Shown here piece after piece: positions 20,676-43,103 of a stretch of DNA of 49,837 nucleotides. The notes below the pieces were generated by a model. The model was not told the DNA's origin and did not search any database. It saw only the letters and a list, made by a program, of their open reading frames with translations. The stretch spans positions 3,665-53,501 of the forward strand of contig JAIEFT010000058.1 in assembly GCA_029066805.1 (NCBI GenBank), written 5' to 3'. A program made the position numbers and the translations under genes. Numbering within the stretch: position 1 is the stretch's first letter; each line of letters begins with the position of its first letter. This stretch comes from Clostridiales bacterium (GTDB lineage Bacteria > Bacillota > Clostridia > Christensenellales > Pumilibacteraceae).

Positions 20676-20709
20676 TAAAAAACGCGCCCTGCATTTAGGC
20701 GCGGCTTTT
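20676..20709. terminator. Bidirectional terminator after the eleven-gene operon
   Basis: CGCGCC (20683-20688) and GGCGCG (20698-20703) form a GC-only stem with a 9-nt loop. On the minus strand it is followed by a run of T beyond 20682, ending the DUF262 gene transcript; on the plus strand TTTT follows at 20706. Confidence 0.8.
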
Positions 20710-20714
20710 AATAA

Positions 20715-22574
20715 TTATTCACCGAAGATGAATTTTAAAATTCGGTCGGCGGCTTTTGTTGTTGCCGCATTTATATCGTCTTTCTTCCAATACGGCTTTA
20801 CGGTGTCGCGGTATTTTGCGACCAGTGCGCACGCAATCGGATATTTGCTATCTATGTAACCGGTTTTATTATCAAGCGTTGTAGACACTTTTGTTCTAAA
20901 CCATTCGTTACCAATAGATCGGTTGATCTTTTCCTCGAGCAGTATTTTATTGCCCAGCTTGTTTACAACGCTGCCGAACTCATCATCGTCGGCAATGTCG
21001 GCGTCTCGTCTGATCTCTTGACGATTGCTTCCGCTGTGCGGCATGATATGCTCTATGTCGCACTTTGTGTCGAGCGAGAACGCGACGCCTTTTTCGCGCG
21101 CAAACAGCAATTCGTTTAGGTAGACTAATACGTTTTCGTCATAATCGTTCAACGCATCTTTTACTTTGGCTTGTTCTTTCCAGTTGCCGCTTATGTGTGC
21201 GTCGAAGTCTGTTTTGATGTCATCTGAGGATACGGTTGCGTCGATCAGTTTTATTTGCTCGGCAAATAAGAACATTTTAAACTGCTTACTTGAATACCCT
21301 ACGTCGCCTAGCTCGAGTAAAGCAAACAGCCGTAAAAAGCAATCGAGAACGGGTTTTAAGCTTTCCTCCGTAATATTTTCCTCGTCCAGCCTAAAAAAGT
21401 AGCTCGCCAAAAACAGCTTCATATTCTCGTTGAACCGTAACAGAACCCTCAGCTGCGGATAGCTCGATACTTTCAGCCAAATACGAGCGAGCTTGAGCAT
21501 ATCGGCGCACATTGTCAAAGGGTCATTGATCAACGCTTTGTTCTTGCTGTCCGTAAAATATCTCCTCAACCCCGGCATTGTAACGTTGACTGCGCCCGTA
21601 TCGCTGACTGTTTCCCTGTTTCGCGCACGAAGATAATACATATACTGCATCAGAATGGAGTTGATATCCGCAATGCCAATCGTTTCCAACTCGTTTATAA
21701 CATCGTTCAGCTTGTCCCATTGCGCTTTGAATTCTGCATTTTTGCCGCTGCTTTCCGCCGCCGCGTACAGTTTTGCGGAAATAATATCCGAATCGTAAAG
21801 CGGTAAGCCGTCCGAATTCAAAGAGTTGAACATTGTAATAGCTTGCTCGACTTGCCAGCTCTTTATTTCGATCACTTCACAGTTGTTAATAATGGTTTTT
21901 GTGATTATGTTTAACTGAGAGTCCGACAGTTCGCCTATCTTGCCGTAGAAAAACTTGAAATTCTTGAAGAAGTTGGTAAAGCGGTTGTCCTTCCTTTTGT
22001 ATTTGATTTGTTCGACCGTAGCTTCCGCCGTGGCATAGTCGGCAGCTTTAAGAATCGTTTGCAGTTCATTTCTGTACTGCTCGGTTATCGAGTGATTTTC
22101 GATAATCGCTGCCATTTGATAGATTACCGAATCCTTTGTCACATCGGGCTTGTCCGCAATGTCGTCCGCTTCCGCCTTGTACAAAATGCCCATGATGTTT
22201 CTTCTTCCATCTTGAAGCCCACGGTAAAGCCTATCCGAATCTTCATCCCACGACGTTTTTGCAATAGCATTGTTTATTCTTATCAACAACGCCTTTAACA
22301 GCAACAAAAAGGATGTGGTGCGCTGTTGCCCGTCAATTAGCACGTATTTTGTGTCTTCATCTTGGCAGTTGACGATTATCGTGCCAAAAAAGTAGCTGTC
22401 CTTGCTCTTGTTTTTGTTTTCGGCATAATCAATTATATCCTGCCAAAGCTTATCGCAGTTTTCGATTTTCCAGGAATATGCGCGTTGATATTCCGGTATA
22501 ATGAACACCATATCTTCTTCCAGCTTTAAATACTCGCCGATTTTCTTAAGCTTGGGCTCTATGTTTTTTGCCAT
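20715..22574 (-). CDS. DUF262-DUF1524 (GmrSD-family) nuclease
   Basis: A 619-residue fusion of the two domains that make up GmrS and GmrD. The N-terminal DUF262 domain, a ParB-like nucleotide-dependent fold, shows IPEYQRAYSW near residues 26-35 and the signature DGQQRT near 80. The C-terminal DUF1524 domain is an HNH-type nuclease with CDIEHIMPHSGS near 503-514 and the supporting NKLGNKILLEEKINRSIGN segment. Relatives are type IV restriction enzymes that cut modified phage DNA, and related proteins serve in phosphorothioate-linked defence. It is 39 bp after the Vps4-like gene with its own AAGGAGG site and ends at a strong terminator, so it closes the operon. A TATACT box lies in the gap, but I see no matching -35. 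Confidence 0.93.
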   Translation of the reverse strand: MAKNIEPKLKKIGEYLKLEEDMVFIIPEYQRAYSWKIENCDKLWQDIIDYAENKNKSKDSYFFGTIIVNCQDEDTKYVLIDGQQRTTSFLLLLKALLIRINNAIAKTSWDEDSDRLYRGLQDGRRNIMGILYKAEADDIADKPDVTKDSVIYQMAAIIENHSITEQYRNELQTILKAADYATAEATVEQIKYKRKDNRFTNFFKNFKFFYGKIGELSDSQLNIITKTIINNCEVIEIKSWQVEQAITMFNSLNSDGLPLYDSDIISAKLYAAAESSGKNAEFKAQWDKLNDVINELETIGIADINSILMQYMYYLRARNRETVSDTGAVNVTMPGLRRYFTDSKNKALINDPLTMCADMLKLARIWLKVSSYPQLRVLLRFNENMKLFLASYFFRLDEENITEESLKPVLDCFLRLFALLELGDVGYSSKQFKMFLFAEQIKLIDATVSSDDIKTDFDAHISGNWKEQAKVKDALNDYDENVLVYLNELLFAREKGVAFSLDTKCDIEHIMPHSGSNRQEIRRDADIADDDEFGSVVNKLGNKILLEEKINRSIGNEWFRTKVSTTLDNKTGYIDSKYPIACALVAKYRDTVKPYWKKDDINAATTKAADRILKFIFGE

Positions 22575-22613
22575 AATAATAGCCTCCTTTGTTTTTGTAG
22601 TATAACTTTGTTT

Positions 22614-23771
22614 TTACTGAAAATTTTCGTATTGCTTGAGTAATTCGACGGATATGCTCGGGCGCAGTTTTTTGAACGCCTTTTCAAACATGTCTCTGCG
22701 GAGCGGTATAGGCTTTGGCAAGCCCTTACTTTGCATTTCCTCTAGCGCGAGGCGGCACGCCTCTTCTATTATTCCGCACAAATCCGCCGCCGAATAGTAC
22801 CAAGTCGTAACCTTTGCATTTGTGCCGGGCACAGTCGATTTGGTGTACGCTTCGCTCATTTCCACAAGGTCCTCGGTTGTCACGCCGTCCAGTGCTATGC
22901 CGCTGAGCTTGCCCTCGATTATAGCGCGTTTTGCCGTGATGTCGGGCGGGGGCACGTGCACGCGATGCGAGAACCGCTTGAACCTGAGATACGCGGGGTC
23001 TATTACGTCGGGACGGTTTGTAGCCGCTATCATTATGCGCTTTGATCCGTTTACGCCAAAACCGTTTATTCGCTGCAACAGCTCGGTCGTGACCGCCGCT
23101 TTATAGTCCTTGGTGTCCGGACCGCGCTTGCTGAATATAGATTCGCACTCGTCCACAAAAAGTATCGCGCCGTCCGCGCAAGCGTCCATTTCGTCAAACA
23201 GCTGGCGCACCGCTTGCTCGGATTCGCCGACGTACGACTTGAAGATATCCGCAGGCGTAATTATAAACAGCGGGAGCTGAAGCTTGTTGGCAATCGCTTC
23301 CGCGAACATGGTTTTGCCCGTGCCGGGTGCGCCGTACATGAGCATGCCCAAGCCGCCCTCGATTTTGTAATACTTGACAATATCCTGATGCGACGCGATG
23401 TATACAAAGCTTTCCACAAGCTTTTTTACGTCATCCAAGCCTTTTACGTCGTCGAACGTTGTTTTGGGTATTGTGTGGCTTACCGTCGAGCCGTACTCGG
23501 TAGCCTTTTTACCGAACTTTACAGATAACTCTTTATACTTATCCGCCTCTTGCGCGTTGGTGTGACGTTCGCCGATTTTTTGCGCCAACTGCGACGCGCG
23601 CAAGTACTGCGTGGCCAGCTTTTGCTTGTCCTCGCTTCTCAGGTCGCGTTTGTCCTTGACCCCGCCGATAATCGTGCGGATCAGGCTTGTTGCCTCGTTA
23701 AAGTTCTTTTCAAGCTCCTCGATCGACATTCCCTCGTCGCCAGAAGACTTTTTACCGAATCCCGATGCCAT
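22614..23771 (-). CDS. Vps4-like AAA ATPase with MIT-like N-terminal domain
   Basis: A 385-residue classical AAA protein of the meiotic (Vps4/katanin/spastin) type. Residues 15-95 are a charged helical region the size of an MIT domain (SIEELEKNFNEATSLIRTII; YLRASQLAQKIGERH). The AAA module starts at FDDVKGLDDVKKLVE. Walker A is GAPGTGKT at 147-154, pore loop 1 FKSYVGESE keeps an aromatic residue at Tyr180, and Walker B is ILFVDECES at 203-211. AATNRPDVIDPAYLRFKRF holds sensor 1 and the SRH arginine. The C-terminal FEKAFKKLRPSISVELLKQY resembles the last helix of Vps4-type proteins. It lies 10 bp after the Snf7-like gene and has an AGGAGGGG ribosome site. The family remodels ESCRT-III filaments or unfolds proteins; its substrate here is inferred to be the neighbouring coiled-coil protein. 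Confidence 0.93.
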   Translation of the reverse strand: MASGFGKKSSGDEGMSIEELEKNFNEATSLIRTIIGGVKDKRDLRSEDKQKLATQYLRASQLAQKIGERHTNAQEADKYKELSVKFGKKATEYGSTVSHTIPKTTFDDVKGLDDVKKLVESFVYIASHQDIVKYYKIEGGLGMLMYGAPGTGKTMFAEAIANKLQLPLFIITPADIFKSYVGESEQAVRQLFDEMDACADGAILFVDECESIFSKRGPDTKDYKAAVTTELLQRINGFGVNGSKRIMIAATNRPDVIDPAYLRFKRFSHRVHVPPPDITAKRAIIEGKLSGIALDGVTTEDLVEMSEAYTKSTVPGTNAKVTTWYYSAADLCGIIEEACRLALEEMQSKGLPKPIPLRRDMFEKAFKKLRPSISVELLKQYENFQ

Positions 23772-23781
23772 TTATCCCCTC

Positions 23782-24528
23782 CTAAAGAATATCGTCGAAC
23801 GAATCAGTAGAAGGCGCGCCATTAGCGCCGCCAGTCGGAGCGCTTGCGCCGTCGCCTGCGCCGCCGCCCGCGACTTCGCTTACGCGCTTATCTATAAGCT
23901 GTTGCGCCTTGCTCGGTTGCGGCGCGACGCCGCCGCTGCTTTTGAGCCGCTTCGCTTGAATCTTGCGCTGCTTTTCCGCCTGCTTGGCGAGCTTGGCTTG
24001 CATACGCTCCGTAGATTTTCGGAATGAATCCTGCATTCCGTACGCCATTTTGTGCGTTGACTCGAGCATATTGACGATTTCTATCATGCGCCCTTCGTTG
24101 TTGCGCATTGCAAGCTTAATCTTTTTCTTTTTCTTTCTGCGCTCTCTCCAGCCGTGGTTGATCTTGGTGGTATCGTCAAGCGCCTCGTATGTGGTTTCGA
24201 GAATGGAGTCCATACACGTCATAGCTTCGGTTATGCACTGCATAGCCTTTGACACGTCGTTGAGCGTGTTTATCATGTCCTCCATTTGAATGGTGACGTC
24301 CAGAAACATCGTGAGCATTTGCGTGAGGTAGTCCTCTCTGCCGCGCTCCAGAGTAAGCTGAACGGCACGGTCCTCAAGCTCCTGTCTGCGCGCGGAAAAC
24401 TTTTGCCGCTTTTCCCGAATCTCCCGCTCGCGTCTGTCTGCGTCCGTTTTTTCGTCCAGCGCGCGCGTGCGCTCGTCAATGCTCGCGCGGCGACGCTCTC
24501 TTTCGGACATTCCTTCGCTCATTGCCAT
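23782..24528 (-). CDS. Coiled-coil protein, candidate Snf7/ESCRT-III-like partner of the AAA ATPase
   Basis: A 248-residue, highly charged protein with a basic helical N-terminal half (SERERRRASIDERTRAL), a hydrophobic helical core at about 68-125 (LTMFLDVTIQMEDMINTL; MDSILETTYEALDD), a basic patch RERRKKKKKIKLAMRN, and another long helix. A flexible Gly/Ala-rich linker (about 205-240) ends in an acidic hydrophobic tip, STDSFDDIL. Size, basic-to-acidic polarity, an unstructured linker and a terminal short motif are how ESCRT-III proteins present an MIT-interacting motif to Vps4. That is an analogy from architecture and from the adjacent MIT-like/AAA gene, not a sequence match I can prove. The alternative is an unrelated adaptor. 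A good AAGGAG precedes the ATG. Confidence 0.6.
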   Translation of the reverse strand: MAMSEGMSERERRRASIDERTRALDEKTDADRREREIREKRQKFSARRQELEDRAVQLTLERGREDYLTQMLTMFLDVTIQMEDMINTLNDVSKAMQCITEAMTCMDSILETTYEALDDTTKINHGWRERRKKKKKIKLAMRNNEGRMIEIVNMLESTHKMAYGMQDSFRKSTERMQAKLAKQAEKQRKIQAKRLKSSGGVAPQPSKAQQLIDKRVSEVAGGGAGDGASAPTGGANGAPSTDSFDDIL

Positions 24529-24592
24529 ATTTGAATTCTCCTTGTTTGATTGTTATTTTTTACGGATAACTCCGCGGTTTACGTTTTGTTCG

Positions 24593-27500
24593 CTAAATAG
24601 TTACATGCTTGATTATAGCGTTTTTAAGCGCCGCTCTTTCGACCTCGGCGTTGTCCAGCCAGTCGTGAGCGTACACCTTGTGGAAAGCCCAACCTCGATT
24701 TGTCAGCGACGTTACGTACCTAACGTTGTAGTCGTAAAAGTCGTACTTTTTCATGACGGGATACTCGCACCAAATGCCGAACTCCGCCTTGTCGAGCGAC
24801 TTACCCAGTATGGCTATCGGTATACGCACAGAACCGTCGGTAACGCCGTAGCCTATTACAATGCGCTCACGCGCTATGCCTAAGGACTCTATATAGTCTG
24901 CGACCATGCGAATAAAGCTTCCGCCCTTTTCGGGATTGTTGGACTTGAACTGACTTCTGCCCGCCTCGGAATAACGCCTTGCCACAGCCAAATAATCCTG
25001 AATAAACGCGACGCGCGGATTGCCGGTCATCTGCTCCGGAGTTATGCTGTGAATGACCGTTATCCTGCACTTTGCGCGCGTGACCGCCACGTTGAAAATA
25101 TTTTTGCCCGTCGCGTCGCGGTTTAGGTCGCCGAACGCAAGCTTGACTTTGCCGTTTCTGTCCTTACCGTAAGTGACCGAAAGAATAAGGTGGTCGGTCT
25201 CCTGACCCTGCACGCTCTCTATCGTACGGAAAAATACAAGCTTGTCAGGCACGTCGTCGAAGTGCGCATAAGCGTCGTCTATCTTTCGCCGAAGCTCGCG
25301 GTCGTCGGCTACAAGTCGCTTGATACACCGCATCTGCGCCTCGCCGAACGCGACAACGCCGACCGACATAGAAAGCTTTTTGGTCTTTTCGTTATAGTAG
25401 CTGTCGAAATGCGCTTTTAACTGCTCCACCGCCGTTTGCGCCTCGACGGGGTTAACGCCGTCCTCGCAGTATCCGTTTTCGGTAAGAATATCCGTAAAGC
25501 CTAAGTCGGGCGTCATAGGCACTGTCGCGGGGAACGTGCGCATATACGGATAGAATTGGCGCTGGGAAAACTCGATAAGCGTTTCCGTTTTGCTGCGATA
25601 GTGGCAGACAAGCTCCGCCGCGTCGAATGCGAGATTGCCGAGCGCTAAGCTCAACGCCGATATATCCGTATCGAGCGTAAGCTCGCTGTCGGTATCGCTT
25701 ATGCGCTTGCGGTTTTTAGCCTTAAAGTGCGTCAGCGGCGGCATTTGGAACTCGTCGCCCACAAGCACGCACTGCTTGCTCCTGAACAGCACGGGCAGCA
25801 TTTCCACCGGCTCTATCTGGCTCGCCTCGTCCACTATTACTACGTCGAAATTTTCGTAGGCTTCTCCACGGAAGAGCACGCTTGCCGTGGACGGCGACAT
25901 GATAAAGCATTTTTTCAGCTTGAGTATAGCGTAGGCGTGCTGACGGAACAGCATGCGCAGCGACATGTTTATACCCTTGTCTATCGCAAGAAAGTCAAAG
26001 TCGTCATCGTCGGGATTTATCCGCGCCATGCACAGATTCTCAATGGTTGCCGCATTGCATTCGCGCAGCTCGTTTTCCGCGTCCTCAAAGCTCTTAAGCT
26101 CGAGCTCGGCGTTTTTGCACAGCCCGTTGCGCTTTGACCCGAGCGTTTTGAGCTTGTGCTCGATCGCGAGCGAGTAGAACGAATGCAAGAACAAATCGAC
26201 AAACCGCTCGGGACTTACTTTAACCTTGCCGTCCTCTATCGGCTCGAAAAAGTTGACAAGTGGCAGAGCGTTCTTGCCGAAAACAATATTGTCGTAGCTT
26301 TCCGCTGCGTTTAGCACAGACCTATCGCGCGACTGCGCAACAAACACCTTTGTATCGCCGACTGTTGTTAGCCACGGCAGCCTTGTGTACCTATTGGCAA
26401 AGTGCGCCTCGCCGAATGCCTTAAGCTTGCGCACAACGTCGGACGTGAGCGAGGCAACGCCTTCCCCCACCGCTTGCATTTGCTCGACAAACGCAAGCAC
26501 TCCGTCCGCATTGCCTGCAAAATGCGGCGAATAGAATATTCTGAGCAGCGCGGCGAGCGACCGAGCCTGCGCGGCAATATTTCCTGTCAAATCGACACCC
26601 GCTCTTTCGCAGAACGCCTTGACAGTGCCGACCAGCTCGTTCTTTACAACAATCAGGTTGACCGCGTCAATCAGGTTTTGCACAGTAAAATCGCCTTGCG
26701 CTTTGATTCGGTTGCGACATTTGCCTATTATATCGTCGGCAACCGCGCACGCCTTGACAAGCTCCGTCATCTCCTGTCCGAGTCTTTTACTGACGTCGCC
26801 GACAAGCAATATGCAGTCGAACTCATCCTCGGATAATCTATCCTTGCCCGACACGCGCGCAAGCACCGAACACAGCTCGGCTATGCGCTTGTCGCATTCG
26901 GCTATGCGCTTGAACTTGTCTGCGGCTATTGCGAGCTCGGCAAGCGTAATGTCGCTTCGCGAGCAAAGCGCCCTAAGCTTTTTCTCCGCCGATCGAGCTT
27001 TTAGATCGAAAATGCCGATCGACCGCCTTTGCCCGTCCTTGTACGGGATAAGCGCGTCCGCCGCCCTTATAACCGCCGCATCGCCTATCTCCGCTTTATC
27101 CAAAACGAATACGACGTCGGGCTGTAAGTCGTTTCGCTCGGCGTGCAGATCTATAATTTCCAAAACGGTTTTCATAAACGAAACCGCCATTTTTTCTGTC
27201 CGCTCATTGCCGCTCGCGCCCAAAAACACACTTTTATTTTGCGCGATCTTTCTCACTTCCGAAGCCGTAAGGGCAGCCACGGCTTCACAGTTATTTATAT
27301 CCACAAAGCACGGGTCGTCGCCCGCTTCCGAAAGGTCGAAAATCTCGCCGCCTGTGTCGCGTGCCGCGCTGTACTTGTCCAACAGCACTTCTATTCTTTC
27401 GCCGTCCGATTCGGTGAGCGCGAGGAGCAACTTTTTTATATCGACCGAGCCGAGCGATATGGGGCGCGCCGCGTCGCACAAATCGCCGTATGTTATGCGA

Positions 27501-29131: not shown

Positions 29132-29171
29132 TGCTTTTTCCTTTTAGGTGCGTTAACTCACCCGAATGGCG

Positions 29172-31076: not shown

Positions 31077-31081
31077 TTCGA

Positions 31082-32623: not shown

Positions 32624-32644
32624 AATATATTCTCCTAAAACATT

Positions 32645-33745: not shown

Positions 33746-33761
33746 GTTTTTCTGTCCCTCT

Positions 33762-36464
33762 CTACTCCTGCTCTGTTCCCGATTGTTCGGGCGTGGTAGG
33801 CTTGGGTTCGGTAACGGTGAGCATGCCCCTGACAACCCTCACATCGTAGTTGGACGCGTCCGCCCCCGTAACCGTCGCGCCGATCGCGTATGTACCTACG
33901 GCAATATTTCCGTCGTCATCGGTCGCGGCGTCAGCCGTGTACAATATTTTTACGTCGTCGGAGGACTCTATGCCGTTATTGCGGCTTGTGTAGTCGGGCT
34001 TTTGTCCATACTCGACGGAGATAGAGTCAACCGTTATTGTAACCTGCTTTTTCGCAATAGTGAACGGCTTTTCGGTATTTGTAAGCGTGTAGTTTTTATC
34101 CGAAGTAGTCGCTATAGCCACGCCGCCGCCCACGTTTTTTTCCACACCCGATACGGTTAACGGGATATTCTTGCCGTCGACGCCCCTAGCCGTCGCCGTG
34201 GGCGCTTGCGTCCGCCCGTTGTAAGTGAGCGAGGTATTGCCCCAGGTTACTTCCACTTGCATCGGCGTTATTTTGAATTTGATGCTATTGGAGCTCGCCT
34301 CGTCTATAGTATAGTTGCTATCGGCAATTTCCGCGATTGCAGTATAGTTTTCGCCGGCGTCTGTTTGCCGTCCGATATAACGTATTTCAAGCGCGCCGCC
34401 CCGTAAGCCATACGCGTGCGCCGTCGGCGAATGAGAGTTCCCGTCATACGGGAATTCGGTTTTATCGTCCCAAGTGAGCGGAACGGGACAAGGCAAAACG
34501 GTAAACGTGTGTGTTTCGCCCTCCGCTATATAGTACTTATAGCTGTTGCCGCCCGAAAGCCGTGCCGTGTACGTGTTGGTAGCCGCGTTGGTCTGACCGA
34601 ACTGCGAATTCGACAGAGTGATATTATCGTCATCTAACGCGTTAAAGAGCTCGGCAGTAATGCGTTTTACCGTCCCGTCGTAAACATTATCCTCGGCGTC
34701 CGTCCATTTTACGGTGATCGGGCGGCGAAGCACGTTTATATTGATCTCGGCGGCGTTTGCAGAACTGCAAGAGGTTATTTGCGGCGCGCTGATTTTGGCT
34801 ATTGCGCCGTATCTATTGTCACCGATATATTCAGCGCGTTGCCGTAATGTTTCCGAAACGCCGATACGCGTATTTTCGCCGTACCATTCGTATTCTATTT
34901 TGATGCCGTCTAACGGATGAGTCACCGAAGCGGCAAGCTCGAAGTCATCGCCGTAAATAACGTCGGTATCGCCGGTTGCGGTCGATATTGTTATTTGCGG
35001 CTGAGCAAGCTCCCAGTACGGCGCGATCGTTATTGTGCTGTGCGGCTCGCTCAACACGTCGGCAAGCGATGTAAACTGTTTATAATCACGCGGATTATTC
35101 TGATAGCAGCGCATGGTGCGCACAAAACCCTCGCCGCGGTCGAACTGCGCCAATAACTCGTCGGCTTTTTCTGCGACGGTCAGTTTGTAATCGCGCACAG
35201 TCCCGTCCACAGTGCTATATTCAAAGTGCTCCGCAGTGTCGTACATTGTATCGTTGCCTTCGCCCGGATACACCATGGTGACCCTTTGGAATCGCACCTG
35301 CACTTTGTCGCGGCTTGCGTCTATTGCAGCGCCGTCTATTGCAGCGCCGTCGGCTTTCAGCTCGGACATCATATATCCGCCGCCTTGATAACCGACGTTA
35401 TTGTAACAGTAGAACAAATCGTCGTCCGAGTTAACGTCCGACCTATCCACGTAATCCAGACCTTCGATATCGGACAGTCTGAACGTTTCGCCCTTTTTGC
35501 CGTACCAAGTGGGAATGATAGCCATTTCCGAATGCATGTACGCATCGCGGTCGTAATCGAACGTAACGTACACCTCGTCTTTGTCCAGATTTATGGGGTG
35601 AACGTTATTTCCAAGCTCGTGTCGGGACGGATAATAGTCGCCGATATTTGCTCCGTACAGCTTAAGCTTGATCGTATCCACGTCCTTTTTGTCCACATAT
35701 ATCTGTATGTCGCTGTTAACGCCGTGACCGCTCCTCATATCGTTGCAAAGCTCGACGCCGCTGTCGCAGTTGAGCGTTACGCTCTTTATATCGGCATAGG
35801 AGAACACATTGGCGGACACTTTGGTCACCTTTCTTCCGTTGAACTCATACGGAATGACCACGCGGTCGCCATTGCCCCAAACAATTCCGGTAACCGCGCA
35901 CTCATCATCGCCGATATACTCGTAAATGAGCGGAAACGTGTCGTTGCCTTGACCGAAATAGCCGTCGCAGAATATGGTTATGCCGTAGTACGTTACGCAA
36001 CCTAACAGCGCGACCGCCGAAAAAGCTACAGCCAAAGCGAACTGAACGGTGCGCCCGCCGCGTATTACCCTCGCAGCGTACAAATACGCTACGACCGCCG
36101 CGACAATGCCGACGGCATGAAGTATCGACCACGCCGCCACGACCGTGTTGGCAAATATAGTCGGGCTTTGCGACGTGCATATCCAAATAACGACGAAAGT
36201 CGCCGTCAGAACCATATATACTATAAACAACAATTGCGCGTACTTGAACCGCTGATTGGATAGCGCTACGCCCAACAAATACAGCAAGTCCACAGCCGTC
36301 ATTATAAACGGGATGAACCAATACGCGCTTGCCGCGCCGAATATCCACAAAACCACACAAGCGGACAAATCGGCTATCGACATGAGCGCCAAGCCTATCA
36401 TCAACCAAATTTTATTTTTGCCGGAAAGCATTTCCGTGACGGGTGACTGTGAGTTGTTTTTCAT
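33762..36464 (-). CDS. Multi-pass membrane protein with extracellular MBG-like repeats
   Basis: 900 residues from the ATG at 36464, chosen over an ATG 20 codons upstream because GGAGGG is spaced for it and the upstream start would overlap the previous gene. About five membrane helices fill residues 15-175 (IWLMIGLALMSIADLSACVV; LLFIVYMVLTATFVVIWI). The rest is likely outside the cell: a region resembling part of a BspA-like repeat (VIPYEFNGRKVTKVSANVFS) and a 200-residue unknown segment. At least four MBG/YDG-type beta modules follow at about 560-885, with phrases like VTWGNTSLTYNGRTQAP and VTGADASNYDV. The C-terminus is a Pro/Thr-rich tail (KPTTPEQSG). It links the otherwise cytosolic operon to the envelope. 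Confidence 0.85.
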   Translation of the reverse strand: MKNNSQSPVTEMLSGKNKIWLMIGLALMSIADLSACVVLWIFGAASAYWFIPFIMTAVDLLYLLGVALSNQRFKYAQLLFIVYMVLTATFVVIWICTSQSPTIFANTVVAAWSILHAVGIVAAVVAYLYAARVIRGGRTVQFALAVAFSAVALLGCVTYYGITIFCDGYFGQGNDTFPLIYEYIGDDECAVTGIVWGNGDRVVIPYEFNGRKVTKVSANVFSYADIKSVTLNCDSGVELCNDMRSGHGVNSDIQIYVDKKDVDTIKLKLYGANIGDYYPSRHELGNNVHPINLDKDEVYVTFDYDRDAYMHSEMAIIPTWYGKKGETFRLSDIEGLDYVDRSDVNSDDDLFYCYNNVGYQGGGYMMSELKADGAAIDGAAIDASRDKVQVRFQRVTMVYPGEGNDTMYDTAEHFEYSTVDGTVRDYKLTVAEKADELLAQFDRGEGFVRTMRCYQNNPRDYKQFTSLADVLSEPHSTITIAPYWELAQPQITISTATGDTDVIYGDDFELAASVTHPLDGIKIEYEWYGENTRIGVSETLRQRAEYIGDNRYGAIAKISAPQITSCSSANAAEININVLRRPITVKWTDAEDNVYDGTVKRITAELFNALDDDNITLSNSQFGQTNAATNTYTARLSGGNSYKYYIAEGETHTFTVLPCPVPLTWDDKTEFPYDGNSHSPTAHAYGLRGGALEIRYIGRQTDAGENYTAIAEIADSNYTIDEASSNSIKFKITPMQVEVTWGNTSLTYNGRTQAPTATARGVDGKNIPLTVSGVEKNVGGGVAIATTSDKNYTLTNTEKPFTIAKKQVTITVDSISVEYGQKPDYTSRNNGIESSDDVKILYTADAATDDDGNIAVGTYAIGATVTGADASNYDVRVVRGMLTVTEPKPTTPEQSGTEQE
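35319..35348. repeat. 15-bp in-frame tandem duplication
   Basis: GTCTATTGCAGCGCC occurs twice in a row inside the membrane-protein gene, encoding the repeat GAAID-GAAID. It is the second such 15-bp duplication in this operon. Confidence 0.85.
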
Positions 36465-36483
36465 TACCGTTTTTACACCCTCC

Positions 36484-38133
36484 TCACTTAACCTTTTTGG
36501 GCGGTTCGATATAACCGTAATCACGCGCGTCCAGTTTGTTAAACACGTATCTTTCGTTGCCCAGCTCGAAGATGATTATGTTGCTGTCTTCCTTACAACA
36601 CTTTTTGTCGGTCAAATGCTTCAATCGGACGCGCAGTCCAAGCATTTTACTATACTTACGGTAAAGCTTTTTGCCCTCGGCGGTAAAGCTCACGTCGCCG
36701 CACAGCTTGCAGTATCCGTTCTTGCCCGTGTGCTCGCCGTAAGTTCTGCCGCAGCACCTGCACTTTTTGACCTTATCCTCCGTAAGCACAAACGCTTGCT
36801 CGTCCAGGTTGAGTGTGGAGGTGAGCCGTCCCCCGTCGTAGTCGCCCGAAAATACGTTGTGATACACGACTTCGGGATACGGACAGCCCTTGCACTTGCG
36901 CACGATCTTGCCGTCGGCATCCGTGTACTCCACGGCTTGCTTTGCACAAACAAGTCTTGTGCAATCGCTGTTGCGCGAGTTTTCGGGGCACGCTATCTTG
37001 AACAAGTGCCGCGATATCAACGCCGATGTCTTGATCTGATTTATAGCTTCGTCGTCCAAACCGAGGTTGCGCATGGAAAAGTCTAGGTAGTAATCGCCGT
37101 CAAACTCGCTTTCGTCAAACAGCACCGTGTTGTTATCCACCAATAGCACGCCGTCACGGCTGCAATTGGTGCAATATAGACTTATGCTGTTGTTTAGTCC
37201 TACGATCATTTTAAGCGCGTTGCGCCCGCTCACATTTACCGCATACGCAAAATTCTGCCACTCCACATGCGAAATGCCCAGCACCGTAACGTGCGTGCAT
37301 TCCAGCTCCTTTTCGTCGCTGGTGGCAAGGAGCTTAAGCATTTTTTCTATCTTGACCTGATAGTCGGGGCTGAACATTATATAATCGGCGCAGTTTTCCG
37401 CCTCGAACAGCTCGCCCGCACGGTTAAGCACGTCGCTGATAAGCTGACCGTCTACCAGCTCGCCCGCGCCGGACTTTTGCTCGCCGCTATCCTCAGGAGG
37501 CACTGTCGCGTTGATATAGTCATCTACACCGCGCGCCTCCGCTCGACTGATAGGAATATACTTGCCGTCGCGGCTTACTCGAAAGTACACCTTGCCGAGC
37601 ACAGGCTCGGACTGCGCGCCGCCGTTTATTTCAAGCCGCATAGATACGGCGTAAAAATTTTCGGGCTCTACCGTATACTTTTCCGATATAGTAAACGGCG
37701 CGTCGATTACGAGCTTTAAAAAGTCGTTTTCAAACTTTTTGACGGCGGCCGCCATGGAGCTGTTAACAGACGCAAGCCGTGCGTTTGCGCTCTGACGAAA
37801 CTCTATCATAGAGTAGTACTTGTGATAGTCCGAGCTGACGTCCGCAATAAGCTGCTCCCAGTCCGCACTGCTGCTGTCAAAGCTCGCTCCGCGCAGTCCC
37901 GAAAACCAACTCGCGCCGCCCTTGTCAAACCTTAGCTCGTTTCCCGCGTCGTCGCTCGACCCGTTAACGCCGTGCTCATCCTCGCAGTACTTAAACACAT
38001 TGGCGGCAGTGACGATTTCGGTATCGGTGACGCGTTTTATGCTTACCTTTTCGGACAAAAAACCGTTCCTGTAAAGGCTGCAAATGCTTTTGAATTCTTT
38101 TTCGTATTCGTATCCGACTTTGATTATTGCCAT
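36484..38133 (-). CDS. Cysteine-rich (zinc-binding) protein of unknown function
   Basis: 549 residues. The N-terminal two-thirds show no familiar motif; predicted strands and helices include GKVYFRVSRDGKYIPISRAE. The C-terminal third carries paired cysteines in several groups: CTNC near 337; a longer cluster starting CPENSRNSDC and continuing VCAKQ, CKGC near 425; then CRCC with CKLC further on, the last separated by TYGEHTGKNGY. These should hold two or more zinc ions. The same style of dense, irregular cysteine clusters occurs in the C-terminal part of the neighbouring SNF2-type helicase, so the two may share a partner or form one complex. The ATG is 3 bp after the helicase stop, with AAGGAG inside the helicase gene's end. 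Confidence 0.75.
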   Translation of the reverse strand: MAIIKVGYEYEKEFKSICSLYRNGFLSEKVSIKRVTDTEIVTAANVFKYCEDEHGVNGSSDDAGNELRFDKGGASWFSGLRGASFDSSSADWEQLIADVSSDYHKYYSMIEFRQSANARLASVNSSMAAAVKKFENDFLKLVIDAPFTISEKYTVEPENFYAVSMRLEINGGAQSEPVLGKVYFRVSRDGKYIPISRAEARGVDDYINATVPPEDSGEQKSGAGELVDGQLISDVLNRAGELFEAENCADYIMFSPDYQVKIEKMLKLLATSDEKELECTHVTVLGISHVEWQNFAYAVNVSGRNALKMIVGLNNSISLYCTNCSRDGVLLVDNNTVLFDESEFDGDYYLDFSMRNLGLDDEAINQIKTSALISRHLFKIACPENSRNSDCTRLVCAKQAVEYTDADGKIVRKCKGCPYPEVVYHNVFSGDYDGGRLTSTLNLDEQAFVLTEDKVKKCRCCGRTYGEHTGKNGYCKLCGDVSFTAEGKKLYRKYSKMLGLRVRLKHLTDKKCCKEDSNIIIFELGNERYVFNKLDARDYGYIEPPKKVK

Positions 38134-38136
38134 GCT

Positions 38137-41037
38137 CTACTCCTTTGCCGCGTCCGAATCGCGCTCGAGTATTTGCCGAACGTCGGAAACGATTTCGGCT
38201 TGCTCGCCGAGGTTTTTGCAAAACCCTTCGCCGCCGTCGTGATCGAACTTCCAAAGCTCGGATATGAACGTTGCAAACGTGCGCGCCACAACGGGACGAA
38301 GCACGCCGTGATGATGGTGCGACGAACACCCGGGCATGGGACAGTCGGACTCCCACTTATCGTTGAACTCCAGCACGTACGGATTGGGACTGCAACCCGC
38401 GTATTCGCACGTGGAGCAGCGACCGCCCTCGCCCGGCTCGCCCGCAATCTGCTCCTTGGCGCGCCCTGCTATTTTGCACTTGTCCCAGCAATCCTCGTTG
38501 TCGCACATAGCGCAAATACGCATTAGCTCGACGTCCGAGATGTTTCCGATTGAATTGTAACGCTTTAGCGCGGGGCACTTGCCGTACAAATGCCCGCCTT
38601 TGTTAAACCGACGGCAGTGCGATATCGCGCAAATCTTGCGGCAGTAAATAGACCTGTCGCCCTTTTCGCCCGAATTGCACATTCTGCCGCGTTCGCCGTT
38701 TTCCACGTTGGAAAAACACATATACCCGTCCGATACCGAACGCGTCAGCACCGTGCCGCAAGAATCGCATTTAAAGTCATACACCGTTATTTCGGACATT
38801 TCAGTACCCTTGCCGTCCGCCCCGATGCACTGGGCTTCCGCATGACACCTGAGCGCGTCGGGATTTTTGGCGCGCTTGTCGTCGTACGCCTCTTTGGACA
38901 TAAGCACGACCCTGCTGCACGCGTTGCACCGCAAAGCTACCATCTGATCGGAGTTGCTGCCAGCAAGTATAGTCGCGTCGCCGCTATTGCCCGAAAGCAA
39001 GCCTATCTCCGTGAAGTACGCGAGCGCGAAGCCCTCCAATTTACTCATATCAGCAAGCGAATATACCTCGACATTGTTCTTTTGTCCGAGGCGAAAAATA
39101 CGTCCTATGCGCTGATCCATAGCGAGCGGATCGTACGTCACTTGATAGTTGATTATTACGCTCGATTCCTGTAAGTTTGCGCCCTCCGTAAACTTGGCGT
39201 CCTTTACAAACAGTATCGCGTCCTTGCGGCTGTCCGAGTTGAACTCGCGCTCTATCTTGTGCACGTCGGACGTCTCGTCGCCTATGATTATTCTGTCCCT
39301 AAGCTCGGGATCTTGCATGAACGCGTCGCATACCCTGTCGTACACGCGTTCGCCCTTGCCGAGGTTGTAATCAAAAAACACCAGTATGCGCTTATCCTTG
39401 TGCTGTTTGAGTATGCGCACAGCCGTATCGTACTTATAGTCCTTTACGTCCTCGGATATCTTGACGGGAATGTAATACGTTGTTTTTGCAACGGAGTCTT
39501 GCGTGTTGCGCAGGCGATCCGTATAGTACCGCATATATCCGAGCTTGGTGTGAATGGTCTTGTTTTGCGGGTCGCCCGCCGCAAGCTTGTTGAGCATGTT
39601 GTTTACAATATGTCCGTAGGCTTGCGAAAACTGCAAATTTCCGCGAAAATGCTCCGCGTAGCTTGTAAGCGGCATTTCTTCCGAGCCTGTATCTACCATG
39701 GGCGAGCTTGCGGTTGCGTCGGCAAAGCTAACAGTGATTTTTTTGTTGCCGGTCACGCCCGTAATGCTTATTTCTTCGGGAACGCTCGACATGGGATAGA
39801 AAAAGTAGTTGTGCACAGTTTTCTTTTTGGCGAGACGGTTGGGCTGGCGTATCATTATCGAACGCAAAACGCCGTTATGGTATGCGTCGGATACGCGCTT
39901 GAGCACGTCGTCCTTGATCGCTTTGTTGCCGTCCGAGCCGAGAAAGTCGTCTATGTACCGAGCGCGGTCGTATTGCGACTTGCCGTCAAACTCTTGAGCC
40001 TGACCGGTTTCGTCCAGGTACTCGATCAACTCGTCGTAGTACTTTTGCATGACTACCGAATACTTTACTCTGCGAATAAAATCTGTAATATTGGTCGCGC
40101 CGTAGCATACCGTGTCCTTGTAGTACTGCTTTTCCTCCACATACTGCGCCGTGCGTTCGCCATCGTCCTTCTCGTCAAAGTCAGACGGGTTGCCGCCCTT
40201 ACACCGCACAAAATACCACAGACGGAACATGTTTTCAAGATTGCCCGAGTGCGGCGTTGCCGTAAGCAGCAGACAATACGTCGCGCCTGCGCGTTTTTTG
40301 GTCTGCATCATTTCGGAGAGCATGCGCATTGCGCCTGCGTACTTTCCTGCGTCCTCGCTGAAGTGGTGCGCCTCGTCCACTACTACCACGTCTACCAAAA
40401 AATCGGGGCTGTACCGCCACTGCGCGAATATATCCACGTCGACGATTATGGGGCGCTTGGGACGAATAAACTTGCCCTGCTTGGTCACGCCCACGTCGCT
40501 CAAAACGTCCTGCAACGTCGGGTAGTCCTCACCCTCGTTTTTGGCAACCTTGTACAGCGAGTCCTTGCCCATACCGAACTTGTTTTCGAGCACGTCGACC
40601 CAGCTCGCAAAAACCTGATCGGGTGTGATTATAATCAGCGATTTCATCTTGCCGCGAACGGCAAGCTCGCTTAAGATCACGCCCGCTTCAAACGTTTTAC
40701 CGCTGCCGACGACGTCGGCAAGCAAACCGAACCCTCTAAGGTCGCGTAAAAACTTTTCCGCCGCAGTCTGTTGGTGCGAAAGAATAACGCTGCCGCCCTC
40801 GCCGTGGATGTCCTTGTCGGCGGTTATGCCGTACTCGGACTTGCCTTTCCCGGGACGTTTGTAGTGTGAACAGTCAATCAAAAGCTCGTGAAAATCGTCG
40901 TGGCTGTCCAATGCTTCCACGCTTGCCTGCGCTTCCGCGACCTGACGGGTAAACTTCTTTTTATACTGAAGATTACTGCGCTGGATATCTGCCGAGAATG
41001 CAGTATCGTTAAAAATGAGCTTGTAGTTATCTTCCAT
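38137..41037 (-). CDS. SNF2-type SF2 helicase/translocase with C-terminal cysteine-rich region
   Basis: A 966-residue SF2 ATPase of the SNF2/RapA/DrmD-like class. Motif I is LADVVGSGKT at about 106-115, preceded by the Q-like SVILSHQQTAAEKFL. Motif II is VVVDEAHHF near 218, motif III LLTATPHSG. The second RecA domain holds RILVFFDYNLGKGERVYDRV, VKDAKFTEGANLQESSVIIN and motif VI DQRIGRIFRLGQ near 642. The C-terminal 280 residues contain about 25 cysteines and many histidines (CNAC, CDSC, CAMCDNEDC, CSTCEYAGC, CSSHHHHG), suggesting several zinc sites. Such ATPases move along double-stranded DNA in defence systems such as DISARM, or on nucleoprotein. Eighteen bases separate it from the Hsp70-like gene. 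Confidence 0.93.
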   Translation of the reverse strand: MEDNYKLIFNDTAFSADIQRSNLQYKKKFTRQVAEAQASVEALDSHDDFHELLIDCSHYKRPGKGKSEYGITADKDIHGEGGSVILSHQQTAAEKFLRDLRGFGLLADVVGSGKTFEAGVILSELAVRGKMKSLIIITPDQVFASWVDVLENKFGMGKDSLYKVAKNEGEDYPTLQDVLSDVGVTKQGKFIRPKRPIIVDVDIFAQWRYSPDFLVDVVVVDEAHHFSEDAGKYAGAMRMLSEMMQTKKRAGATYCLLLTATPHSGNLENMFRLWYFVRCKGGNPSDFDEKDDGERTAQYVEEKQYYKDTVCYGATNITDFIRRVKYSVVMQKYYDELIEYLDETGQAQEFDGKSQYDRARYIDDFLGSDGNKAIKDDVLKRVSDAYHNGVLRSIMIRQPNRLAKKKTVHNYFFYPMSSVPEEISITGVTGNKKITVSFADATASSPMVDTGSEEMPLTSYAEHFRGNLQFSQAYGHIVNNMLNKLAAGDPQNKTIHTKLGYMRYYTDRLRNTQDSVAKTTYYIPVKISEDVKDYKYDTAVRILKQHKDKRILVFFDYNLGKGERVYDRVCDAFMQDPELRDRIIIGDETSDVHKIEREFNSDSRKDAILFVKDAKFTEGANLQESSVIINYQVTYDPLAMDQRIGRIFRLGQKNNVEVYSLADMSKLEGFALAYFTEIGLLSGNSGDATILAGSNSDQMVALRCNACSRVVLMSKEAYDDKRAKNPDALRCHAEAQCIGADGKGTEMSEITVYDFKCDSCGTVLTRSVSDGYMCFSNVENGERGRMCNSGEKGDRSIYCRKICAISHCRRFNKGGHLYGKCPALKRYNSIGNISDVELMRICAMCDNEDCWDKCKIAGRAKEQIAGEPGEGGRCSTCEYAGCSPNPYVLEFNDKWESDCPMPGCSSHHHHGVLRPVVARTFATFISELWKFDHDGGEGFCKNLGEQAEIVSDVRQILERDSDAAKE

Positions 41038-41055
41038 TCTCTCTTTAATCCCTCC

Positions 41056-43047
41056 TTAGCTGAATTGCGTCTCGATATTGAACCTGAACTCAATATCCTT
41101 TTTGAACACGTAATCTTTGCCGCCGCGCCCGTCCAGATACACTATTTGGGTCTCGCCTACATTGCGTTTCCTGTCGTTTCGCGCATATGCCTTGGCGTAC
41201 CCGTCGCCGTCGATTTCCACACCGAACTTGAGAAATACCTCGTTAATTATACGTATCGGTCTGCCCTTGTAGTAATATCTTGCGCGCGCGCCGCCGTCGC
41301 CGAGATTGTTTATATCTCCGTTGAGCACGCGCAGCCCGATTTCCCTTTGGAGCTTGTTCATCATCGTCTTGTTTTCGGTATTGACTATCAATAAGTTTTC
41401 GCCGCCCGAATTGCAATACGATATTATCGGCGCTTTGCGCGAGTGCGCCATGTCGAGCGCAGAGTAGAACGTGCTCATAATATGCATTGCCGCCGATACT
41501 TCCGAATCGTCGCCTGTGGTTATGCCGCCCTTGTCGTTGTCCTTGGGCGTGTAATACGTTGCGCCGCCCTTCGGTATGCGCGTGCCCTTGTCTACAAGCA
41601 CGCGGAAATACGGAATCACGTTGCCGCTGCCGACAACGCGGAAAAGCCGTACGCCGTAAGTGAGCGCCAGCACTATGTCGATAGACATGTCGCACATGGA
41701 CGCAACAGCGCCGCCGAGAGCGGGCGCGTACAGCGCGTCCTCGTGGCTCATAATATTGTAGCCGTCGTTCTTGACGCCGACGTACTCCTCATCGCCTTTT
41801 TCAAACGTAAATACTTTAACGCCGAGCGGCTCGATACACTGACGTATGTACTTTATCAATCCGTATGTCTCAACAGGTCCGCCCGTGATGAAAATCTTTT
41901 TTACGTCCGAGTTGATGGGGCGAACAAGCTCGTCGGTTATGTAATCTACTATCTTGCGCGCGACGCCGGTATTGCCGTCTATGCCTATGCACTTTTCAAA
42001 CTGCTCGCGCGTTATGGAACGCTGTATCAACAGATCGCGCGACGCGGAAATAGGCACGCCGTAGCGGAACGCGCGGCTCTCGTATATGGGCATGCCCAAA
42101 ACTATCTTTGCCGACTTTATATCCTTTACAAACAAATACTGCTTGGCGACAAGCGCGGTCTCGGCAAGATGTCCGTCCTCGCCGCAGGACGGTCTGCCCA
42201 TGGTTTCACGCCCGGACATCTGTCCCTCTATATACGCGGCGACCGCGTCGTCAATATCCTTACCGCCGATCGACGCAGGCTCGCTGTGCCCGTCCACACC
42301 GTCGATCGATATACCGCCGCCAGAAAACGTGACCTTAACAAGCGAAGTGCGCTCCTCGCCGATATTGAATATTATCGATTTGTCGTCGGTTTCCATGCGC
42401 CCCGAATATTTGGCGTACGCGCAAAGCGCTTTTGCCATGCTCATAACCGTTTGCGGAACTACGCCGAACGCGCGTGTTACCAGTCGTTTCAGCTCCGCAA
42501 CATAATCGCCGTCCGAAAACGCGGGATATACAATGCACGGCACGACATCGGGCACGCTTCCCGCCTTTTTGAGCAGCTTAGTCAGCCTGCCGACGACCAT
42601 ATCGTGAACGTACTCGAAAAACATCTCGCACACCTCGGCTGGCGTCTCTGAGGCATTAAACGCGCGGTCAAGCCGCACAGCCGCGTCAAGATCGTCGGTC
42701 AAACGAAAGCGTTGAGGAAAATAGAACTTGGGGAATCTGGTTTTATTAAAGTAATACTCACGATTGCTTTTTTGCGTTGCAGGCGACTCCGCAGGCTGCA
42801 ACAGCCTAAGCAAATCGCAAATTTTTACAACGGTAATAAAAGGCTTGTCGCCGACTAAATCAACTTCGTTGCCGAACAGCCACTTTTTTTCGTCAACATC
42901 GTAATACGCCACGGACGGCACGCCTGTCATCGTAAGCGGATCTCCCACTATCTTTCCCGTGTGATCCTGCCCGTCGTTATACGCATACGCTATTTTTATT
43001 GTGTCACTGCCAAGGTCGAGTGCTACATGTACCGATTGATTTGCCAT
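41056..43047 (-). CDS. Hsp70-like ATPase, first gene of the eleven-gene operon
   Basis: A 663-residue actin-fold ATPase. Phosphate-1 motif VALDLGSDTIKIAYAY is at residues 8-23. The phosphate-2 region reads SIIFNIGEERTSLVKV, where true DnaK has a DxGGGTxD core, so this motif is altered. IGGKDIDDAVAAYI is close to the DnaK segment GGxDFD, and the adenosine motif is KKIFITGGPVETYGLI. After about residue 470 a short beta-rich part (LTYGVRLFRVVGSGNVIPYF, then IPKGGATYYTPKDNDKGGI) looks like a reduced substrate-binding domain. It is therefore a divergent Hsp70-family protein, not the housekeeping DnaK. It could act as a nucleotide-controlled sensor or assembly chaperone for the operon's complex (inference). 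It follows a perfect consensus promoter with an AGAGGAAG ribosome site. Confidence 0.9.
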   Translation of the reverse strand: MANQSVHVALDLGSDTIKIAYAYNDGQDHTGKIVGDPLTMTGVPSVAYYDVDEKKWLFGNEVDLVGDKPFITVVKICDLLRLLQPAESPATQKSNREYYFNKTRFPKFYFPQRFRLTDDLDAAVRLDRAFNASETPAEVCEMFFEYVHDMVVGRLTKLLKKAGSVPDVVPCIVYPAFSDGDYVAELKRLVTRAFGVVPQTVMSMAKALCAYAKYSGRMETDDKSIIFNIGEERTSLVKVTFSGGGISIDGVDGHSEPASIGGKDIDDAVAAYIEGQMSGRETMGRPSCGEDGHLAETALVAKQYLFVKDIKSAKIVLGMPIYESRAFRYGVPISASRDLLIQRSITREQFEKCIGIDGNTGVARKIVDYITDELVRPINSDVKKIFITGGPVETYGLIKYIRQCIEPLGVKVFTFEKGDEEYVGVKNDGYNIMSHEDALYAPALGGAVASMCDMSIDIVLALTYGVRLFRVVGSGNVIPYFRVLVDKGTRIPKGGATYYTPKDNDKGGITTGDDSEVSAAMHIMSTFYSALDMAHSRKAPIISYCNSGGENLLIVNTENKTMMNKLQREIGLRVLNGDINNLGDGGARARYYYKGRPIRIINEVFLKFGVEIDGDGYAKAYARNDRKRNVGETQIVYLDGRGGKDYVFKKDIEFRFNIETQFS

Positions 43048-43074
43048 TACGCTTTTTATACTTCCTCTACATAA

Positions 43075-43103
43075 ATTATATCACCGTATTACAGCTATGT
43101 CAA
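43075..43103 (-). promoter_or_regulatory. Perfect consensus promoter of the eleven-gene operon
   Basis: Minus strand TTGACA (43098-43103), exactly 17 bp, TATAAT (43075-43080): both hexamers and the spacing equal the housekeeping sigma consensus. The ATG of the Hsp70-like gene is 27 nt after the -10 box. Confidence 0.9.

Follow-up and report, generated by a model that had tools for sequence, protein, structure and literature searches.

Which activity could bring together an Hsp70-like ATPase, two helicases, a Vps4-like motor, a predicted surface protein and a GmrSD nuclease in one bacterial operon? The question is raised by a 49,837-nucleotide stretch of a Clostridiales genome (here the window, meaning the whole stretch analysed), for which the original prediction had proposed a single defence or conflict system acting at the cell envelope.

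Operon architecture

The proposed eleven-gene operon with 3-64 bp spacing is real: positions 20715-43047 of the reverse strand hold eleven consecutive ORFs, genes A to K (Table 1), separated in that order by 18, 3, 19, 16, 21, 5, 40, 64, 10 and 39 bp. These gaps use corrected starts, as comparison with relatives sets D at ATG 36464 and E at ATG 33745, and the uncorrected longer ORFs (33762-36524 for D, 32645-33835 for E) would overlap their neighbours. The promoter predicted to be a perfect consensus is one, with hexamers and spacing identical ahead of gene A at 8/8 same-site loci, the window included; the predicted terminator was also found, as a terminator-like hairpin. Scans exceed shuffled sequence only modestly, both for promoters (10 sites against 5.4, and 7 against 4.0) and for terminators (12 against 10.2, and 10 against 6.5), so more weight rests on the promoter being conserved.

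Table 1. Genes and signals of the operon; all lie on the reverse strand (-), in window coordinates.
Feature	Position	Strand	Size	Description	Basis
Promoter	43075..43103	-		TTGACA-N17-TATAAT, TG before -10	Consensus score 12/12
Gene A	41056..43047	-	663 aa	Hsp70-like ATPase	hhalign vs DnaK-type alignment
Gene B	38137..41037	-	966 aa	SNF2-type translocase, cysteine-rich C-terminal part	SNF2-rel_dom, Helicase_C
Gene C	36484..38133	-	549 aa	Cysteine-rich (zinc-ribbon-like)	Cysteines invariant in 9 rows
Gene D	33762..36464	-	900 aa	Predicted membrane protein with about five TM helices, an extended MBG/Ig-like region and a distal tip open to exchange	MBG_2, hydropathy
Gene E	32645..33745	-	366 aa	N-terminal CxxC...CxxC and Sel1-like repeats	Cysteines, Sel1 chain match
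Gene F	31082..32623	-	513 aa	Coiled-coil protein, C-terminal tail mostly acidic	27-sequence alignment, coiled-coil type matches
Gene G (optional)	29172..31076	-	634 aa	Putative metallopeptidase, HExxHxxQ...ExDAxAF	Motifs invariant in 8 rows
Gene H (optional)	24593..29131	-	1512 aa	DUF4011-type SF1 helicase, degenerate MTES_1575/Vsr-like C-terminus	Pfam, PADLOC
Gene I	23782..24528	-	248 aa	Long helices (three), a flexible linker and an acidic C-terminal tip that is conserved	Alignment, AF2 model
Gene J	22614..23771	-	385 aa	Vps4/CDC48-type AAA ATPase: N-terminal three-helix bundle, AAA, Vps4_C	Pfam
Gene K (accessory, this window only in searches made)	20715..22574	-	619 aa	GmrSD type IV restriction-type	GmrSD_N, GmrSD_C
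Terminator-like hairpin	20683..20703	-		7-bp stem (6 G-C), then TTTTTT	

Conservation and distribution

A scan of genome contigs gave 80 loci; L040-L054 were kept as relatives by their neighbouring genes, and L055-L119 were set aside as generic SNF2 helicases on partial-query matches (E 1e-19 or weaker), not on neighbours. Seven L loci duplicating G genomes, together with G280 and G378 on contigs of 3.7 and 3.3 kb, were removed before loci were counted, and 40 relatives remain. The window and 26 of these 40 make up the 27 loci used as denominator. Among the 14 relatives excluded, the contig ends inside the operon in 12 (G182, G362, G221, G290, G199, L040, L041, L043, L044, L048, L049 and L052); in G005 the operon is split over two contigs, with pieces of all ten genes found, and in G344 I-J precede A-D, an RNA-ligase-like ORF lies between A and B, and the contig ends past D. 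Within J falls the contig end of both G019 and L051.

Eight genes, A, B, C, D, E, F, I and J, occur together and in this order in 24 of the 27 loci, one of them in a Bacilli MAG (L051), and we define them as the core. G and H form an optional cassette, jointly absent from the operon in 10/24 complete loci. The three incomplete loci have an unassigned ORF at I (G030) or at F and I (G270), or carry A-E only (G062); as the last does without F-J, I-J are not always required. The A-E genes of G062 adjoin hrcA, dnaK and dnaJ genes. Because all ten genes A-J recur in order among relatives, the operon is not a chance assembly; K does not recur. The original prediction, which had looked for at least seven of the eleven genes together, is thus borne out as to a single inherited unit, with the core found at differing genomic sites. 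Pairwise gene distances within the core correlate over the 24 loci (r 0.83-0.99, beyond the best of 999 permutations), a correlation that plain vertical descent would also produce. All genes are under purifying selection in five pairs: dN/dS is 0.117-0.35 for D, the fastest-evolving gene of the operon, and 0.006-0.155 for every other gene.

Counting the genome that contains the window, 31/395 in the order carry the system, and 10/20 in the genus do. Two further matches in the order, G176 and G259, were weak fragments and were set aside. The operon is flanked by PGK and V-ATPase/Sua5 genes, and at this site 8/19 genomes of the genus have it, the site being empty in other species; among the other 11, two congeners (G014 and G018) carry a divergent operon at other places, with gene A 36-38% identical. 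This accessory, patchy distribution with operon-free sites is of the kind that marks anti-phage systems, although presence and absence at one genus site can also be explained by an old gain followed by losses. The same pattern might suggest that the operon is not a chromosomal system but travels as cargo of a mobile element (provirus, plasmid or conjugative element); the PGK and V-ATPase/Sua5 flanks speak against this and no relative of gene A was found in plasmids, phages or viral contigs, so that such an origin is extremely improbable. Nearness to further defence genes, which the original prediction had named as a supporting sign, is not evident. Of 200 flanking ORFs, 159 were scanned in PADLOC and gave scattered matches, with no family appearing more than three times among the matches listed, and 67 flanking ORFs searched in Pfam are mostly metabolic and housekeeping (best 25 of 81 families). 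The locus is an unnamed accessory system found in uncultured gut Clostridia and in two or more MAGs of Bacilli type; its core is A-F, I and J, G-H are optional, and a GmrSD gene was added in this lineage.

Gene A and the question of protein quality control

Profile comparison supports the predicted Hsp70-like nature of A. Against an alignment of ten DnaK-type proteins, hhalign gives 96.7% (E 3.1e-10) over 240 columns, a stretch that includes the second phosphate and adenosine motifs and leaves out the N-terminal phosphate motif. HSC70/DnaK appear in the PDB sequence search at E 0.06-0.5, and Pfam, its HSP70 family included, gives no match at E 0.01. In 16 system-free genomes, DnaK-type ORFs are the sole match of the gene A profile (E 1e-3 or better); the N-termini of 10/12 matches in the class scan and of 6/7 in the phylum scan mark them as DnaK-type, and these were left out of the membership.

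An Hsp70-like protein encoded with an unfoldase-like J could belong to a stress operon acting on damaged membrane or nucleoprotein complexes. The Hsp70 and CDC48/p97-like parts and the chaperone-gene neighbourhood in G062 fit such a role; however, the system is patchy within the genus, its promoter is a sigma-70 consensus, the 250 bp before A contain no exact CIRCE element, and the surface tip of D is exchangeable, which together make a quality-control operon quite improbable. In Pfam, none of the operon proteins matched a DnaJ or GrpE family.

Helicases, zinc proteins and nucleases

Both predicted helicases hold up. In Pfam, B carries SNF2-rel_dom and Helicase_C above cut-off and keeps GSGKT, DEAH, RIGR and many cysteines invariant across 9 aligned rows. 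H has AAA_11, AAA_12 and DUF4011 above cut-off, MTES_1575 below it (23.9 vs 38.2 bits), and a PADLOC match to PDC-S37 (E 1.2e-108). In the Vsr-like family the Asp of an RID motif is catalytic; at the corresponding position of H, where we take RID to be the expected family motif, 14/14 rows read RIP or KIP. The nuclease-like domain thus appears degenerate, judging from the alignment, and it is doubtful that H is a helicase-nuclease.

The accompanying proteins mostly escape assignment. A, C, F and G reached no family in Pfam, NCBIfam or PADLOC, and no PDB match was obtained for C at E 1; in the libraries scanned for each, the core families A, C, E, F and I have no match above cut-off. E has C3, C6, C22 and C25 invariant in 21 rows and a Sel1 chain match at E 0.00043, and G, predicted to be an HExxH protein, does have this motif invariant in 8/8 aligned rows.

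The GmrSD domains predicted in K are present, GmrSD_N (DUF262) at 111.5 bits and GmrSD_C (HNH) at 43.2 bits, both above cut-off. K was considered as a member of the conserved system and rejected, being found in 1/20 genus genomes, in AT-richer DNA (GC 0.45), with no match above 50 bits in the loci of 13 relatives; it is a GmrSD gene recruited as the last gene of the operon in this lineage. With K a local addition and the H domain degenerate, the conserved set has no recognised nuclease; K had been one of the main pointers to defence.

Is the I-J pair an ESCRT system?

J is a Vps4-like AAA ATPase, as predicted, by both sequence and model: AAA and Vps4_C exceed their cut-offs, giving it the classic AAA core and Vps4_C helix of the Vps4 family. 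It matches archaeal Vps4/CdvC, and p97 scores equally; three helices are predicted at its N-terminus (17-35, 46-69 and 73-92), with no MIT match in the PDB profile search. The Snf7-like identity claimed for I is unsupported by sequence: among the matches listed (best 25 of 48 families, from 24 I proteins) there is no Snf7/PspA family, and no ESCRT-III or PspA sequence match either. D246 of I is conserved in 24/24 rows. Its AF2 model (mean pLDDT 71.6, pTM 0.46) finds fold matches at the level of generic helical bundles, with scores below what the search tool calls meaningful for such bundles, and BAR/eisosome proteins and p85 coiled coils match equally.

In a true bacterial ESCRT system, I would be ESCRT-III and J its Vps4, and the pair would seal or bud membrane, for instance where phages inject or in making decoy vesicles. 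The family and fold results for I and the equal match of p97 to J argue against this, as do bacterial Vps4-like ATPases with snf7 displaced by an unrelated gene, which PMC11237479 reports. That I and J are such a system is therefore distinctly unlikely.

A surface stalk and the likely role of the system

D has MBG_2 above cut-off in Pfam and five hydropathy segments in 35/40 homologues, and is predicted to span the membrane and carry a long Ig-like stalk. In G012 it is a mosaic, its body 98% identical to that of G004 and its tip 87% identical to that of G008 and 53% to that of G004, which at the level of sequence shows the tip exchanged between species.

We propose, at a probability of about 0.45, that the operon encodes a new conflict system associated with the membrane, in which a stalk at the surface serves recognition and the motor is of Vps4 type. 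The variable stalk outside the cell would be coupled to energy-driven motors within it. Because its distal tip was swapped between species, D may recognise a changing target, for instance a phage or a competing cell. J would remodel assemblies of the helical protein I, perhaps also of F, whose tips resemble those of I in some loci, and its N-terminal bundle may grip their acidic C-terminal tips. A, B, C and E could make up a cytoplasmic complex of Hsp70-like, SNF2 and zinc proteins. Through this complex, recognition would be linked to nucleic acid or nucleoprotein at the membrane, either by movement along it or by its remodelling; H might add unwinding and G proteolysis. Conflict with phages or competitors at the envelope would be the likeliest role.

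Of the defence or conflict system originally predicted at the envelope, the single unit, the membrane-pointing parts and the likeness of both helicases to antiphage proteins (DrmD, BrxH, PDC-S37, ProA and Hhe are the nearest models) remain; the GmrSD and the nuclease content do not, and proximity of defence genes is not evident. Against defence stand a core with no recognised nuclease or toxin, the lack of a clear defence-island setting and the absence of A from the phages and plasmids searched. A more specific version, a membrane immune machine in which the swappable-tip stalk detects attackers and ESCRT-like I-J, with the Hsp70-like and SNF2 proteins, reshape or seal the membrane and clear incoming DNA, is unlikely.

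Somewhat unlikely, too, is a non-immune envelope or cell-contact machine, with D a gut adhesin or stalk that I-J assemble or recycle together with A, C and E, and with regulatory SNF2 and SF1 proteins. D has MBG/Ig-like repeats and varies as adhesins do, the flanks are not clearly defence-rich, and in the searches made the system occurs in one order plus two Bacilli-type loci. Nevertheless, B and H resemble defence helicases, congeners carry divergent copies, and adhesins, to our knowledge, usually lack SNF2 translocases and Zn-type partners.

It is unusual for eight genes to keep their order in Clostridia and also in a Bacilli MAG, more so with five unmatched core families. The system joins a Vps4-type motor, an Hsp70-like ATPase, an SNF2 translocase and a surface protein whose tips are interchangeable. 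Should it prove defensive, it opens envelope-level immunity powered by a motor like Vps4; otherwise it remains a surface system of gut bacteria that lacks an explanation. Natural variants (A-E only, or without G-H) and the tip chimera found in nature allow the roles to be tested directly.

Comparison with known systems

Among the matches listed from open-licence papers, there is no paper on this gene set and no defence system built around a Vps4-type motor. Several known systems share parts of it. K has both domains of a GmrSD type IV restriction enzyme but stands outside the conserved system. B matches DISARM DrmD and BREX BrxH over both helicase halves, yet far under the NCBI cut-off (111 vs 610 bits), and the DISARM partners DrmB and DrmC are absent from the PADLOC scan of 9/11 operon proteins (D and E left out). 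H shares DUF4011, an SF1 helicase and an MTES_1575-like C-terminus with ProA, Hhe, PDC-S37 and Mokosh helicases, whereas it scores below cut-off (ProA 374.6 vs 1500 bits), its nuclease-like motif is degenerate and within the ten-gene operon it is optional.

CoCoNuT type IV restriction likewise places an Hsp70-like domain, coiled coils and zinc ribbons in one conflict operon; in contrast, a membrane stalk and a Vps4-like motor do not figure in the passages of its description consulted (PMC11090510), and the operon here has no McrB-type match above cut-off among the scanned proteins. Neither McrB nor McrC reaches cut-off in Pfam (11 proteins) or NCBIfam (9 proteins), the McrB match of H being 11.9 vs 637 bits.

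The archaeal Cdv or ESCRT-III-Vps4 machinery resembles the I-J pair in that J has the classic AAA core and Vps4_C, aligns end to end with the CdvC model, and is encoded beside a helical partner whose C-terminal tip is conserved. However, J lies far under the CdvC cut-off (141.9 vs 650 bits), I is not demonstrably ESCRT-III, and here the pair is coupled to Hsp70-like, SNF2 and surface-stalk genes.

Organization and conservation of the operon

The operon comprises eleven closely spaced genes (gaps of 3-64 bp): A (Hsp70-like), B (SNF2 translocase), C (cysteine-rich), D (membrane stalk), E (Zn/Sel1-like), F (coiled coil), G (HExxH putative metallopeptidase), H (SF1 helicase), I (three-helix protein), J (Vps4/CDC48-type AAA) and K (GmrSD). 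A sigma-70 promoter (12/12 match) ends 27 bp upstream of A, and a 7-bp hairpin followed by six T lies 3' of K, bearing out the original observation of an eleven-gene operon. The promoter hexamers and 17-bp spacer are identical in all eight loci at this genomic site, window counted. Beyond the operon, a 258-aa ORF overlaps listed ORFs of 140 and 149 aa on the other strand; because it has matches in 13/13 genus flanks searched, it is probably the real gene and they probably are not. Of 200 flanking ORFs, picked by a simple ORF rule, 159 were scanned.

Features of the operon, its flanks and related loci
Feature	Location	Strand	Remark
Operon, A to K	window 43047 to 20715	-	
ATG of D	window 36464	-	downstream of longest-ORF start
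ATG of E	window 33745	-	downstream of longest-ORF start
258-aa ORF	window 19773-20549	+	
MACPF (perforin-like) gene, 653 aa	window 47428-49389	-	outside operon; adjoins DUF6194 gene
PI-PLC-type phospholipase gene	L150:1980-3152 (G346)		begins 11 bp 3' of J
A-E-only form	L035:10933-17886 (G062)		adjoins hrcA, probable grpE, dnaK and dnaJ, same strand
RNA ligase-family ORF	L172:8918-9538 (G344)		between A and B
CvpA/Colicin V production-type protein	L051:3106-3825; L172:11489-12316		immediately upstream of A; two distant loci
Two G genes	L034:3528-7355 (G065)		tandem duplicates
Two I genes	L152:14308-15698 (G277)		tandem duplicates

Loci of relatives, which include MAGs, were mapped by tblastn and HMM, and many end at contig ends inside the operon. 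The order A, B, C is kept in 40/40 of them, with direct adjacency except in genome G344, and D comes after C in 39, the exception being a contig edge in G199. Among 27 loci with enough contig (window counted), 24 have A-F, I and J, all in this order. Unassigned ORFs stand in place of I, or of F and I, in G030 and G270, and G062 has A-E only, with no J-type match above 148.5 bits anywhere in its genome. The G-H cassette is optional: 13 of the 24 full-core loci carry it, 10 have neither gene in the operon, and in one (L051, Bacilli) an SF1 helicase upstream of A replaces it. K was found in 1/20 genus genomes; it lies in AT-richer DNA (GC 0.45-0.47 vs 0.50-0.54 in the remaining operon), and plasmids carry relatives of it that are up to 37% identical. 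The phospholipase gene of G346 is possibly another such accessory last gene.

Distribution and genomic sites

Gene A occurs in 14/101 close-kin genomes and, in a sample of 395 genomes representing the order, in 31 genomes (two with weak fragments) and 13/142 genera, with the window's own genome in both genome counts. Outside the order's members, the class (391 genomes) and phylum (398) samples gave only DnaK-type matches. Further loci came from a scan of named genomes, in MAGs with the labels Clostridia, Christensenellaceae, Eubacteriales and Ca. Protoclostridium, in a Bacilli-labelled MAG (L051) and in an Acholeplasmatales-labelled one (L052, whose contig stops after A-D).

The flanking genes PGK and Sua5 were found in 19/20 genus genomes. 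The operon occupies the site between them in eight of the 19 (two split over contigs), seven have a gap of 1.26-1.74 kb instead, and in two a gap of 5.0-5.9 kb contains other genes. G014 and G018 have a 2.1 kb gap there and a divergent operon elsewhere, with gene A 36-38% identical. Judged from identities, this divergent type seems to have been acquired separately, since PGK of G018 is 80% identical to that of the window.

Selection, tip exchange and proposed working

In five pairs, with dS up to 1.2 in the most distant ones, dN/dS is 0.006-0.155 for every gene except D (0.117-0.35). Across 24 loci, the eight core proteins (A-F, I, J) have correlated pairwise distances (r 0.83-0.99, each beyond the best of 999 permutations), a correlation to which common vertical descent contributes. 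Between G004 and G012, D is 90-100% identical per 50-column block, falling to 40-52% over the final ~150 columns. Sequence comparison shows that D tips are exchanged between species while the body remains with its own lineage, because the G012 tip (C-terminal 160 aa; L021/L022) resembles that of G008 (L023; 87%) and the G012 body (first 880 aa) that of G004 (L019/L020; 98%, vs 57% to G008).

By sequence or model, then, D is a membrane protein whose tip is exchangeable; the SNF2 and AAA motors both have intact motifs, and the tail of I is conserved. The N-terminal bundle of J may recognise this tail, filaments would be remodelled at the membrane, A, B, C and E might provide coupling, and the system would act in conflict. 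We give such a conflict role at the envelope a probability of about 0.45. A surface machine without an immune role is rather unlikely. More doubtful again is a genuine homology to ESCRT; that reading and the envelope-conflict one can overlap.

Comparison with published systems

A Vps4-like motor in bacteria is already known as such, since the PSP study (PMC11237479) reports that Vps4-like ATPases were transferred to bacteria and that an unrelated TPR/6TM gene displaced snf7; the terms Hsp70 and SNF2 are absent from that paper. The CoCoNuT paper (PMC11090510) and PMC7159879 describe conflict operons that contain Hsp70, but their cores differ, being a McrB GTPase in the former and a GTPase and tubulin in the latter. 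Among the matches listed, judged mostly from titles and abstract openings, no published account of this gene set was found. By the family libraries and literature searched here, the gene set is categorically new.
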